Shown: piece by piece, positions 17,722-62,076 of the stretch
How positions within the stretch are numbered: the stretch's first letter is position 1
How the letters are laid out: each line of letters starts with the position of its first letter
Source of the DNA: Shinella yambaruensis
Lineage (GTDB): Bacteria; Pseudomonadota; Alphaproteobacteria; Rhizobiales; Rhizobiaceae
Length of the DNA: 64,000 nucleotides
Direction of reading: 5' to 3'
Assembly: GCF_022899355.1 (NCBI RefSeq)
Contig: NZ_JALJCK010000017.1
Span: 1-64,000 of the forward strand
The notes under the pieces: generated by a model
Database searches by the model: none
The model's input: the letters and a program-made list of their open reading frames with translations, nothing else
Told to the model about the DNA's origin: nothing
Translations under genes and position numbers: made by a program

Positions 17722-19611
17722 TCAATCCATGGCGTGGATGTCGCGGTCCTTCGTTTCCGGCAGGAAGAGAAGGCCGATGACCAGCGTGATGCCGGCGAAG
17801 ACGATTGGGTACCAGAGGCCGTAGTAGATATCGCCCTGGGCCGCGCTCATCGCGAAGGCCGTCGCCGGAAGCAGGCCGCCGAACCAGCCGTTGCCGATAT
17901 GGTAGGGCAGCGACATGCCGGTGTAGCGGATGCGGGTCGGGAAGAGCTCGACCAGGAGCGCGGCAATCGGGCCGTAGACCATCGTGACGTAGATCACGAG
18001 CACGGTCAGCACGGCGATGATCGTGATCCAGTTCACGCGCGCCGGGTCTGCCACCATGGTGAAGGCACCGCCCTTGTCGATCGTGTAGACCGCCATGTCG
18101 GTGACCCCGGCGGCTTCCTCGGCCGTCAGCAGCTTGGCCGTGACGAGGTCGACAGCCGGCATGGTCGCCTTCTCGCCGGCGCGGATGGCGGCGGCATCGA
18201 GGGCGAGTTCCGGGTTGCCTGCGACGAAGGCATCCAGCTTGGACTCCGGGACCTTGACCGCACCGCGGACCAGCGGATAACCGTTCGCCTGAAGGGCCAG
18301 GTTGGTTTCCTTCTGGAAGGCCGCGTCGAGCGTCTTGACCTGGTCGGCCGAAGCGATGGCATCGTAGCTCGAGATCGTCTTGTCGCCGATCTGGACCGTT
18401 GCGGCCGTGCCGGCAGCCGCCGTGGTGACGACGTCATAGGGCACCGAGTTGCGGGTCAGGAACGACGTCGCGATGTCGCACGAGGTGGTGAACTTCGCCG
18501 TGCCGGTCGGGTTGAACTGGAACTTGCAGTCGCCCGGAGCAGCGGTGACCGTTGCGCGGATCGTGTCCTGCGCCGTTGCCAGCGCCGGGTTGCCGGCCCA
18601 GGTCAGGGCCTTGAACAGCGGGAAGTAGGTCAGCATGGCGAGCACCAGGCCGGCCATGATGATCGGCTTGCGGCCGATCTTGTCCGACAGCCAGCCGAAG
18701 AAGACGAAGAAGCCGGTACCGATGAGCAGCGAGCAGGCGACCATGATGTTGGCCGACTGGCTCTCGACCTTGAGAACGCCCGTCAGGAAGAAGAGCGCAT
18801 AGAACTGGCCGGAATACCAGACGACGGCCTGGCCGACGACGGCGCCGAAGAGCGCGAGCAGCGCGATCTTGGCGTTGCGCCACTGACCGAAGGCTTCCGT
18901 CAGCGGTGCCTTGGAGCCCTTGCCTTCTTCCTTCATCTTCGCGAAGGCCGGCGATTCGTTCATCTTCAGACGGATCCAGACGGAAACGCCGAGGAGCACG
19001 ACCGACAGCAGGAACGGAATGCGCCAGCCCCATTCGGCGAAGGCTTCCTTGCCGACGATGAACTGCACCGCGAGGATGACGATCAGCGACAGGAACAGGC
19101 CGAGCGTCGCCGTCGTCTGGATCCACGAGGTGAAGTAACCGCGTCTGCCGTCCGGAGCGTGCTCGGCCACGTAGGTCGCGGCACCGCCATATTCCCCGCC
19201 GAGCGCCAGACCCTGCAGCATGCGCAGGATGATCAGGATGATCGGCGCGGCGATGCCGATGGTGGCGGCACCGGGCAGGAGGCCCACGACGAAGGTCGAG
19301 ACGCCCATGATGAGAATGGTGATAAGGAAGGTGTACTTGCGGCCGACGAGGTCGCCGAGGCGGCCGAACACCAGCGCGCCGAACGGACGCACAAGGAAGC
19401 CGGCGGCGAAGGCGAGCAGCGCGAAGATGTTGCGCGTCGTCTCGGGATACTGGCTGAAGAAGGTGGCGCCGATATAGATCGCCAGCGAGCCGTAAAGATA
19501 GAAGTCGTACCATTCGAAAACGGTGCCGAGCGAAGAGGCGAAGATCACCTTCTTCTGCTCGCCCGTCATGGGCGCGGCCTTGGCGTTGCCCACCGTCGAA
19601 ACATTTGCCAT
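17722..19611 (-). CDS. MFS transporter (metabolite:H+ symporter type) with a large periplasmic loop
   Basis: A 629-residue major facilitator protein. The N half shows the MHS-group marks FEWYDFYLYG, RPFGALVFGRLGDLVGRKYT and LQGLALGGEYGGAATYVAEH; the C half has GWLSDKIGRKPII and ELFPTRIRYTGMSLPYHIGNG. Family members carry dicarboxylates, betaine, proline or similar metabolites; the substrate is not evident. The usual length is 430-550. The extra is a hydrophilic stretch of about 185 residues between helices 9 and 10 (nucleotides 18040-18591), predicted to face the periplasm, with two cysteines 16 residues apart. The start at 19611 is decided by GGAGG 8 bases upstream. Confidence 0.93.
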   Translation of the reverse strand: MANVSTVGNAKAAPMTGEQKKVIFASSLGTVFEWYDFYLYGSLAIYIGATFFSQYPETTRNIFALLAFAAGFLVRPFGALVFGRLGDLVGRKYTFLITILIMGVSTFVVGLLPGAATIGIAAPIILIILRMLQGLALGGEYGGAATYVAEHAPDGRRGYFTSWIQTTATLGLFLSLIVILAVQFIVGKEAFAEWGWRIPFLLSVVLLGVSVWIRLKMNESPAFAKMKEEGKGSKAPLTEAFGQWRNAKIALLALFGAVVGQAVVWYSGQFYALFFLTGVLKVESQSANIMVACSLLIGTGFFVFFGWLSDKIGRKPIIMAGLVLAMLTYFPLFKALTWAGNPALATAQDTIRATVTAAPGDCKFQFNPTGTAKFTTSCDIATSFLTRNSVPYDVVTTAAAGTAATVQIGDKTISSYDAIASADQVKTLDAAFQKETNLALQANGYPLVRGAVKVPESKLDAFVAGNPELALDAAAIRAGEKATMPAVDLVTAKLLTAEEAAGVTDMAVYTIDKGGAFTMVADPARVNWITIIAVLTVLVIYVTMVYGPIAALLVELFPTRIRYTGMSLPYHIGNGWFGGLLPATAFAMSAAQGDIYYGLWYPIVFAGITLVIGLLFLPETKDRDIHAMD

Positions 19612-19812
19612 TTCATTGTCCTCCACGAAAACGGCGTATCGGGGCAGCCCATGACAGTCCGGAGTTTCTCCCTAAAAACGCCGGACGGGGTGCGCCTGAT
19701 GAAAGGATGGCAGAAAACGCCTTGCCGCATCAGCGCTGCTTTGGGCTTATGACTTTCGGCGTAAGACTTAAGTCGAGGGCCTTGGCGAAATCCCGGATCG
19801 TTCACGCAAGGC

Positions 19813-19840
19813 TTGACTCTTCGGCAGATGAGCGTATGCA
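19813..19840 (+). promoter_or_regulatory. Promoter of the asd leader transcript
   Basis: TTGACT (19813-19818), 16-bp spacer, TATGCA (19835-19840). It would start RNA at about 19847, just before the ribosome-binding site of the leader peptide. The 19612-19812 stretch before it is the shared upstream region of the MFS gene and holds a TCCGG...CCGGA repeat but no recognised gene. Confidence 0.55.
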
Positions 19841-19862
19841 GCACGCACGCAAAGGAACCGCC

Positions 19863-19982
19863 ATGTACCGCTATGGTCTCGCCATCGCCCGCATGATCGC
19901 TCCGGCCTTCAACGCCGGACGGGTTCGTCGTTGCGTATCGATTTCCAAAACAATGGCCAAAACGACGACGAAAACCGTCTGA
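19863..19982 (+). CDS. Candidate asd leader peptide, rich in Thr, Lys and Met
   Basis: A 39-codon frame with AAAGGA at 19851-19856, 6 bases before the ATG. It begins MYRYGLAIARMIAPAF and ends KTMAKTTTKTV. In these last 11 codons, 5 are Thr, 3 Lys and 1 Met: nine of eleven name end products of the pathway that runs through aspartate semialdehyde. The frame ends 111 bases before asd and is followed by competing hairpins. This is how transcription-attenuation leader peptides look (compare the E. coli thr leader). The codon content and the hairpins are seen; regulation is inference. Confidence 0.6.
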   Translation: MYRYGLAIARMIAPAFNAGRVRRCVSISKTMAKTTTKTV

Positions 19983-20003
19983 CGTCTCTGGCCACCGCTC
20001 TCT

Positions 20004-20065
20004 CCCCGGTACGGCCGGGGACCGAAACCCGCGCATGGCCGGCGGGTTTCACCTCCTGAACCCGC
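20004..20065 (+). promoter_or_regulatory. Competing hairpins between leader peptide and asd (candidate attenuator)
   Basis: Hairpin A: CCCCGG (20004-20009) / CCGGGG (20015-20020). Hairpin B: GAAACCCGC (20024-20032) / GCGGGTTTC (20042-20050), 9 bp. Alternative hairpin C: GCGGGTT (20042-20048) / AACCCGC (20059-20065), 7 bp. B and C share one strand and exclude each other, as in antiterminator/terminator switches. No T run follows, so control could be at translation start or by Rho instead of intrinsic termination. Confidence 0.5.
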
Positions 20066-20093
20066 GGAGAGACAGAGAAAGAGAGCTTTAGAC

Positions 20094-21128
20094 ATGGGTT
20101 TCAAGATCGCAGTCGCCGGCGCGACCGGCAATGTCGGCCGCGAAATGCTGAACATCCTTTCCGAGCGCGGCTTCCCGGCTGACGAAGTCGTGGCGCTGGC
20201 CTCCAGCCGCTCGATCGGCACCGAGGTCTCCTTCGGCGACAAGACGCTGAAGGTGCAGAACCTCGAGAACTACGATTTCTCCGACACGGACATCTGCCTG
20301 ATGTCGGCCGGCGGCACGGTTTCCCAGAAGTTCTCGCCGAAGATCGGCGCGCAGGGCTGCGTCGTCATCGACAATTCCTCCGCCTGGCGCTACGACGCCG
20401 ACGTGCCGCTGATCGTTCCGGAAGTGAACCCCGACGCCGTCGCCCAGTTCACCCGCAAGAACATCATCGCCAACCCCAATTGCTCGACCGCCCAGCTCGT
20501 CGTGGCGCTGAAGCCGCTGCATGACCGCGCGACGATCAAGCGCGTCGTCGTCTCGACCTACCAGTCCGTCTCCGGCGCCGGCAAGGACGGCATGGACGAG
20601 CTCTTCAACCAGACCCGCGCCGTCTTCGTCGCCGATCCGGTCGAATCGAAGAAGTTCACCAAGCGCATCGCCTTCAACGTCATCCCGCACATCGACGTGT
20701 TCATGGAGGACGGCTACACGAAGGAAGAGTGGAAGGTGCTCGCCGAGACCAAGAAGATGCTCGACCCGAAGATCAAGGTGACCTGCACGGCGGTGCGCGT
20801 GCCCGTCTTCATCGGCCATTCCGAATCGGTCAACATCGAGTTCGAGAAGGAGATCACCGCGGACGAGGCGCGCGACATCCTGCGCGAAGCGCCGGGTTGC
20901 CAGGTCATCGACAAGCACGAGAACGGCGGCTACATCACCCCGTACGAATCGGCCGGTGAAGACGCCACCTACATCTCGCGCATCCGCGAGGACGCCACGG
21001 TCGAGAACGGCCTCAACATGTGGGTCGTCTCCGACAACCTGCGCAAGGGTGCCGCCCTCAACGCCATCCAGATCGCCGAGCTGCTCGTCAACCGCGGCCT
21101 GATCAAGGCGAAGAAGCAGGCCGCCTGA
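20094..21128 (+). CDS. asd: Aspartate-semialdehyde dehydrogenase
   Basis: Reduces aspartyl phosphate to aspartate semialdehyde with NADPH, the branch point to lysine/diaminopimelate, threonine, isoleucine and methionine. The protein is 344 residues. It has the NADP-binding GATGNVGREML motif, catalytic Cys130 in NPNCSTAQLV, VVSTYQSVSGAG, and catalytic His242 in FIGHSESVN. The product is also needed for peptidoglycan, so the gene is normally essential. It is preceded by a promoter, a Thr/Lys/Met-rich leader peptide and alternative hairpins, and followed by a strong stem-loop. Confidence 0.98.
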   Translation: MGFKIAVAGATGNVGREMLNILSERGFPADEVVALASSRSIGTEVSFGDKTLKVQNLENYDFSDTDICLMSAGGTVSQKFSPKIGAQGCVVIDNSSAWRYDADVPLIVPEVNPDAVAQFTRKNIIANPNCSTAQLVVALKPLHDRATIKRVVVSTYQSVSGAGKDGMDELFNQTRAVFVADPVESKKFTKRIAFNVIPHIDVFMEDGYTKEEWKVLAETKKMLDPKIKVTCTAVRVPVFIGHSESVNIEFEKEITADEARDILREAPGCQVIDKHENGGYITPYESAGEDATYISRIREDATVENGLNMWVVSDNLRKGAALNAIQIAELLVNRGLIKAKKQAA

Positions 21129-61217: not shown

Positions 61218-61371
61218 GGCCTTCACTGTCGCACAGTTTAGCGCGGACCGATACTGCCGGCGCTGTTTGGGCGTGCCTTCATCGCATTCACGTCATCGCC
61301 ATTTGAATGATCCGGTTTTGCGGACTATATGGGAAAGGAACAAGAAAAACGAAAACGGCTGCGGATCGATA

Positions 61372-62076
61372 ATGGGCTCATTCGACTTTGTAACGATTTT
61401 TTTCCTGGTGGCTGCGGTGGTCATCTTCCTGCAGTTGCGCAGCGTGCTCGGCCGGCGCACCGGCAGCGAGCGCCCGCCCTTCGATCCCTATTCCAAGCGC
61501 GAGACCGCCAGCGAGGCTGATTCGGCCGATCGCGGCAAGGTGGTCACGCTGCCGCGGCGGGACGGGACGGACGAGGAGGAAAATCCCTATGCGTCCGTCG
61601 ATGGCTTTGCCGCACCGGGCACCCCGCTCAACGAGCAGCTTCGCCAGATCGTCAAGGTCGACCCGTCCTTCAACCCGAAGGAGTTCGTCAACGGCGCCCG
61701 CATGGCCTATGAAATGATCGTCGTCGCCTTTGCCGACGGCGACCGCAAGGCATTGAAGAACCTCCTGTCGCGCGAGGTCTACGAAGGCTTCGACGCGGCC
61801 ATCTCGGAACGCGAGAGAAACGGCGAGGTCGTCCGCTCCAGCTTCGTCGGCATCGAGAAGGCCGATATCGTCAGCGCCGAGGTCAAGGACAGCGAGGCGA
61901 ATGTGACGCTGCGCATCGTCAGCCAGCTGATCTCCGCCACCTATGACAAGGCCGGCACGCTGATCGAGGGCGATGCGGAAACGGTGGCCGAGGTCAACGA
62001 CCTGTGGACCTTCGCCCGCGACATCCGTTCGCGCGATCCGAACTGGAAGCTGATCGCCACCGAATCGGAAGGCTGA
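61372..62076 (+). CDS. Tim44/TimA-family membrane protein
   Basis: A 234-residue protein with one N-terminal membrane helix (FDFVTIFFLVAAVVIFLQL) followed by a basic linker, a disordered acidic stretch and a Tim44-like C-terminal domain (from about 90: FNPKEFVNGARMAYEMIVVAFADGD and KLIATESEG at the end). In mitochondria Tim44 links the translocase to Hsp70; the bacterial relative's job is not clear. It lies 15 bases before mltA, opposite secB and fxsA. Confidence 0.92.
   Translation: MGSFDFVTIFFLVAAVVIFLQLRSVLGRRTGSERPPFDPYSKRETASEADSADRGKVVTLPRRDGTDEEENPYASVDGFAAPGTPLNEQLRQIVKVDPSFNPKEFVNGARMAYEMIVVAFADGDRKALKNLLSREVYEGFDAAISERERNGEVVRSSFVGIEKADIVSAEVKDSEANVTLRIVSQLISATYDKAGTLIEGDAETVAEVNDLWTFARDIRSRDPNWKLIATESEG

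Follow-up and report, generated by a model that had tools for sequence, protein, structure and literature searches.

Aspartate-semialdehyde dehydrogenase (Asd) acts at the branch point leading to lysine, threonine, methionine, isoleucine and diaminopimelate. Control by a leader peptide is found in the thr operon of E. coli, where the threonine-rich thrL precedes a biosynthetic gene and the RNA can form alternative stems. An RNA element located before asd itself, the asd RNA motif, is present in lactic acid bacteria.

In Actinobacteria, the LEU element upstream of leuA combines a leader ORF carrying a run of codons with a possible pseudoknot that alternates with a hairpin; according to the available part of the report, it pairs with the downstream Shine-Dalgarno sequence and has no terminator (PMC1262725). 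Mutations in its leader are reported to have had either no effect or an effect inconsistent with classical attenuation (PMC1262725). In Sinorhizobium meliloti, the small ORF SEP5 was found to be translated, both by Ribo-seq and by Western blotting of a tagged fusion (Hadjeras et al. 2023; PMC10117765). In the accessible text of that paper, SEP5 is located in the 5'-UTR of an "aspartate dehydrogenase" gene, which we take to be asd, carries six Thr codons and three Lys codons towards its 3' end, and is called "possibly a leader peptide" that is "conserved only in Sinorhizobium".

The preliminary description of the locus considered here knew of no attenuator of asd in Rhizobiales, a statement that is superseded by this 2023 proposal (PMC10117765). 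It is the only mention of an asd attenuator that was found in the open-access literature searched, outside which the 2004 survey of proteobacterial attenuation falls; the word asd is absent from the accessible text of Corbino et al. (2005; PMC1273637). No description of the RNA scheme presented below, or of its spread, was found in the same open-access literature. The translated S. meliloti sORF is already known as a possible leader; the spread of the leader and its RNA architecture are new. The present analysis concerns asd of Shinella yambaruensis and its relatives, and "the window" refers to the whole stretch of 64,000 nucleotides of S. yambaruensis DNA that was analysed. All of the features described are located on its forward strand.

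The leader frame and its conservation

The asd gene (20094-21128, 344 aa) matches NCBIfam models NF011456/TIGR01296 above the cut-off. Direct reading of the upstream region places the promoter hexamers, the AAAGGA motif, the 39-codon frame and its KTMAKTTTKTV tail exactly where the preliminary description had put them. The putative sigma-70 type promoter (19813-19840) is composed of a -35 element TTGACT (19813-19818), a 16-nt spacer and a -10 element TATGCA (19835-19840). A scan with a generic sigma-70 consensus returned no promoter above threshold. All 75 Rhizobiaceae-type loci have TTGA[CT] no more than 75 nt ahead of the leader ATG, and, judged by sequence, these hexamers are the probable promoter of the leader-asd transcript. 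The Shine-Dalgarno sequence AAAGGA (19851-19856) precedes the leader frame (19863-19982), and a similar motif is found before the leader in 55 of the 75 loci. The frame begins with ATG at 19863 and ends with TGA at 19980-19982. It stays open farther upstream, where a TTG at 19605 would give 125 aa; ATG 19863 is taken as the start because the Shine-Dalgarno sequence precedes it and relatives carry an ATG at a similar place. The N-terminus is variable, while the last 12 codons are near-invariant. The candidate control codons, KTMAKTTTKTV to the stop (19947-19979, strand s1), specify Thr, Lys or Met at nine of 11 positions, as had been claimed for this sequence. Searches of the leader against Rfam and NCBIfam gave nothing. 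Over the 64 kb, both strands included, a single other frame has six Thr/Lys among its last 12 codons (61307-61372, forward strand); its resemblance to the leader is probably due to chance.

Conservation was examined in a close set of 80 named loci that encode a closely related Asd, out of 585 encoding a relative; the closest Asd match in this set is from Shinella fusca (96%). The score of a locus is the number of Thr and Lys residues at the final 12 positions of its best frame, counting frames that stop 50-220 nt upstream of asd. Together with the window, all 81 loci score at least 6 and 73 score at least 7, the remaining eight scoring 6, and the Thr/Lys codons, whose loss in relatives would have spoken against a leader, are kept. 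A score of 7 is reached by none of the 81 antisense strands, none of 810 dinucleotide shuffles and none of 237 other windows from the same contigs; two of the 810 shuffles reach 6. The distance from the leader stop to asd is 69-198 nt in 122 sequences and falls within 95-130 nt in 111 of these. By this comparison, the leader frame is real and conserved.

A homology search with the whole leader peptide matched only 10 of 199 genomes of the family, the window's own included. Such a search is misleading because the N-terminus drifts, and leaders were therefore sought by reading upstream of asd rather than by peptide homology. A leader that has been printed as genus-specific proves to be much more widespread when control codons and RNA are compared rather than the whole peptide. 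In the wider order, asd is present in 148 of 150 genomes, and 56 of 80 genomes score at least 5 in a hand-chosen, non-random sample in which better Asd matches are over-represented. Among the first 60 of these, 28 score at least 7 and 41 at least 5 (controls reaching 5: antisense 1/60, shuffles 4/600); among the next 20, 15 score at least 5, and the asd start is mis-set in two. One locus (L131, genome G204) has no Thr/Lys leader and shows, by eye, a very long, nearly perfect hairpin a short way upstream of asd. In the rest of the class, 20 loci were fetched of 101 with a match, and two of them, L154 and L159, score at least 5. These two, from other orders, have Thr/Lys-rich leaders before asd and different sequence downstream; either transfer or independent origin could account for them.

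The composition of the tail indicates which amino acids may be sensed. In 40 non-redundant sequences, mostly from the wider order, the last 12 residues are 48% Thr and 16% Lys, compared with 17% and 5% in the preceding 12. In 70 Rhizobiaceae-type leaders, the tail is 43% Thr and 27% Lys versus 0.1% and 0% in the 12 residues before it. Methionine accounts for 1.9% of the tail and 4.9% of the preceding 12 residues in the 40 sequences. Of the three amino acids first proposed as signals, threonine is thus enriched foremost and lysine second, and methionine was rejected because tails across relatives are not enriched in it. Agrobacterium-type tails (RITAKTTIKTV in L054, L062, L063, L067, L068, L070, L072, L074 and L078) include Ile codons in this cluster, and threonine is the precursor of isoleucine. 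With five close groups taken together, the variable sites at codon positions 1, 2 and 3 number 34, 31 and 39 in the 26 pre-tail codons (for the Agrobacterium group, this count begins ahead of the likely start) and 1, 4 and 1 in the last 12 codons. The Thr/Lys codons are preserved although the nucleotide sequences differ. On this pattern of substitution, selection is on the final codons and not on the peptide as a whole, which fits a leader peptide and not a functional small protein.

Other genes of the aspartate pathway in the same genome appear to lack such an arrangement: no similar leader was found at 10 loci of hom, thrC, lysC, three dapA and thrB. Two of these loci (L193 and L200) fall short of the family cut-off, and two others (L194 and L195) overlap. 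This genome (G000) has eleven dapA-family matches, three of them over the curated cut-off.

Pairings between the leader stop and asd

Several strands and a hairpin can be recognised between the leader stop and asd. Strand s2 (GUCUCUGGCC, 19984-19993) is located 2-11 nt past the leader stop in the window and would lie beneath a ribosome terminating there. Strand s3 (GCUCUCUCCCCGG, 19997-20009) has three possible partners: s4, s6 and the asd Shine-Dalgarno sequence. Strand s4 (GGCCGGGGAC, 20013-20022) can pair with s2, forming 10 bp in the window and at least 9 bp in 73 of the 75 Rhizobiaceae-type loci, or with s3, forming hairpin A (CCCCGG 20004-20009 with CCGGGG 20015-20020). Since s4 is common to both, s2:s4 and s3:s4 are mutually exclusive, and s2 is within reach of a ribosome at the stop. 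Farther downstream, s6 (GGAGAGA, 20066-20072) is complementary to UCUCUCC of s3 (19999-20005), and the asd Shine-Dalgarno region (AAAGAGAGC, 20078-20086) has 7 nt complementary to GCUCUCU of s3 (19997-20003).

The preliminary description had instead placed the switch in two hairpins that share a strand. Both are present in the window: hairpin B (s5, 20024-20050) pairs 20024-20032 with 20042-20050 (9 bp, as described), and hairpin C pairs 20042-20049 with 20058-20065, although as 8 bp with one G-U and not as 7 bp. The stem of B varies in sequence between species, is at least 6 bp long in 52 of the 75 loci, and reaches z -2.2 in the partner-swap test (21/1000 swaps). A C-like stem of at least 6 bp occurs in five of the 75 loci, namely the window, L001, L018, L027 and, as a weak U-rich stem, L043. 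Hairpin C does not extend beyond close relatives and was rejected as the switch; the pairings that recur across families are s2:s4, s3:s4 and s3:s6.

These pairings were evaluated by exchanging pairing partners between genomes (1000 swaps). Near-duplicates (at least 70% identity), sequences with a leader score below 5, L172 and L173 were dropped from the swap sets. The set of 60 behind the tests with 56 and 52 sequences includes five Rhizobiaceae-type sequences, the window among them, and two from other orders; the fixed-window test excluded sequences in which less than 95 nt separate the leader stop from asd. For s3:s6, z is -4.2 with 40 sequences, -2.7 with 56 in wider windows and -4.9 with 52 in fixed windows (0/1000); for s3:s4, the values in the same three settings are -2.7, -2.8 and -4.8 (0/1000 in fixed windows). 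The s2:s4 pairing gives z -0.9 in coarse windows, -2.0 in fixed windows (27/1000) and -5.2 (0/1000) when placed relative to s3, a setting in which the automatic s3 anchor landed on hairpin B for the window and, as judged by inspection, on another stem for five or more further sequences. Pairing of s1 with s2 (z -0.3) and of s2 with the Shine-Dalgarno sequence (z +0.4) received no swap support and was rejected; s2:s6 gave nothing in the swap test. The controls are not all clean, with z -3.1 for w4:w6, -3.4 for reversed w4:w6 and -3.5 for reversed w3:w5 (52 sequences). Because some controls come near -3, a z near -3 means little and one of -5 has moderate weight.

A helix of at least 7 bp is found for s3:s6 in 46 of 52 sequences versus 45% of shuffles, the clearest excess; for s3:s4 (33/52 versus 45%) and s2:s4 (29/52 versus 44%) the excess over chance is only modest. 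Pairing is also kept where the sequence differs, as in s2:s4 of L188 (GAGCUUUUCCCCG:CGGGGAGAGGCUC) and s3:s6 of L114 (AUGCUCUCCCG:UGGGAGAGCAU). Given that the swap controls are not all clean, most reliance is placed on s3:s6 and s3:s4, which this comparison of sequences bears out, and somewhat less on s2:s4, which it bears out less firmly.

Within Rhizobiaceae, consensus folding yields pairs that are nearly invariant, with no useful covariation. In a consensus fold of 72 sequences, GCUCUCU of s3 pairs with AGAGAGC of the asd Shine-Dalgarno region, beside hairpin A. Both 7-mers are exact in 73 of 75 loci (the exceptions being L033 and L078), which is why no covariation is seen at this pairing.

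Proposed control of asd and its alternatives

Taken together, these features suggest that asd is preceded by a ribosome-mediated amino-acid attenuator acting mainly at translation, a reading that we consider fairly probable. The attenuation proposed in the preliminary description holds for the leader peptide with its control codons, which comparison supports well, and fails for the B/C switch. A ribosome would translate the 39-codon leader and, during a shortage of charged Thr-tRNA (or Lys-tRNA), would stall in the Thr/Lys cluster, so that s2 remains available for pairing with s4. When amino acids are plentiful, the ribosome would reach the stop and cover s2, and s3:s4 would form. Given the size of the ribosome footprint, the position of s2 just past the stop is that of classical attenuation. 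The strand that holds s4 would determine how s3 acts at the purine-rich ribosome-binding region of asd (s6 and, in Rhizobiaceae, also the asd Shine-Dalgarno sequence), and the state of s3 would set asd output, most likely at translation initiation. In Rhizobiaceae, pairing of GCUCUCU with the Shine-Dalgarno sequence would switch asd off. Shortage of Thr or Lys would probably raise asd output. From this arrangement we infer the stalling of the ribosome, the direction of the switch and an output in translation rather than transcription.

The window has no T run, as had been noted, and a Rho-dependent or a translational output had been suggested. We favour the latter because of this missing U-run. 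It is also possible, though in our estimate unlikely, that control is by transcription attenuation, with s3:s4 forming a terminator core that would be intrinsic in some species and Rho-dependent in the window, and with s2:s4 preventing it. The classical logic would fit, since covering of s2 would lead to s3:s4 and to shut-off, and s3:s4 has its swap z of -4.8 in fixed windows. Moreover, in three closely similar genomes of one family (L117, L171 and L172), the last 70 bases before asd contain a 10-bp s3:s4 hairpin followed by GCTTTGTTTT, resembling the end of an intrinsic terminator, and s6 comes directly after; transcription termination is likely in this family. However, these are the only loci in which such an end was seen before asd, and none was found in the window and its close kin. 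A U-rich tail is absent from the 14 nt after s4 in all 75 Rhizobiaceae-type loci, and a T-run search in 40 non-redundant sequences (L117 dropped for length) gave four hits, none of them, by inspection, directly past s3:s4. In addition, s3:s6 is supported even though s6 would lie beyond the point of termination.

The two readings without attenuation fare worse. A functional small protein encoded by the small ORF, or a trans-acting RNA, with asd nearby only by coincidence, would accord with the accumulation of the S. meliloti peptide as a tagged fusion and with the S. meliloti trp attenuator, which gives a functional RNA and a peptide, both as told in the accessible text of PMC10117765. Yet the pre-tail residues drift with little codon-position bias while the Thr/Lys run is kept, and the leader stop keeps the range of distances before asd given above; we regard this as very improbable. 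Slightly less probable still is a metabolite-binding riboswitch or a protein-binding RNA that happens to hold an ORF. A structured, conserved leader does precede an aspartate-pathway gene, but Rfam gives no match at gathering score anywhere in the window and two sub-threshold hits (E 0.2 and 5) within 19780-20150, and a riboswitch would leave unexplained why Thr/Lys codons are kept across different nucleotide sequences.

For the favoured attenuator acting at translation, 59 sequences were submitted to nested folding in which the 5' end represented a free, stalled or terminating state, and no opening of the start site on stalling was predicted. Compared with the terminating state, the stalled state had a more open asd start region in 19 sequences, an equally open one in 10 and a less open one in 30. 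These modelled counts lean, if at all, against start-site opening, and confidence in the attenuator was slightly lowered because of them. Nested folding cannot represent s2:s4 and s3:s6 together, as these pairs cross. In families outside Rhizobiaceae, the end of s6 is mostly 13-30 nt from the asd start, with a maximum of 53; in a few families the gap between s6 and the start codon is 30-53 nt, which is too long for s6 to cover the Shine-Dalgarno sequence directly. Loop lengths in many species would allow a pseudoknot (e.g., 3 and 0 nt in L071). It is tempting to speculate that across the order a largely terminator-free attenuator exists in which the pyrimidine strands s2 and s3 and the purine strands s4 and s6 swap partners under the control of the ribosome. 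Covering of s2 would give s3:s4, and stalling would give an H-type pseudoknot (s2:s4 with s3:s6), such that asd translation would be tuned to Thr/Lys; this wider scheme is tentative, and we would sooner doubt than expect it.

Relation to described systems

If the attenuator is real, one acting on asd alone, with Thr/Lys codons and in many of the sampled families of this large order, it would explain control of the Asd step, and the asd leader would offer a compact, testable case of terminator-free amino-acid attenuation. With the asd RNA motif of lactic acid bacteria it has in common that an RNA element precedes asd; the bacterial groups are unrelated, and the window lacks an Rfam match at gathering score. 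As in thrL, a leader rich in codons for end products lies just before a biosynthetic gene and is followed by alternative stems. In contrast to thrL, the asd leader would control asd alone, uses Lys as well as Thr, has no U-run terminator in the window, and has alternatives that share s4, which in each of them is the 3' strand.

S. meliloti itself is not among the named loci, and the leaders of three Sinorhizobium loci (L004, L006 and L015) end in KTTAKTTTKTV, with six Thr and three Lys. The accessible text of PMC10117765 confines SEP5 to Sinorhizobium and gives no RNA structure, whereas the present comparison extends the leader to many families of the order and joins it to an RNA scheme. The nearest architectural analogue found is the LEU element, which, as far as the available part of its description goes, likewise has an ORF with a codon run, alternative pairing, a pairing with the Shine-Dalgarno sequence such as is predicted for the asd leader, and no terminator, in a different phylum, for a different amino acid and before a different gene (PMC1262725).
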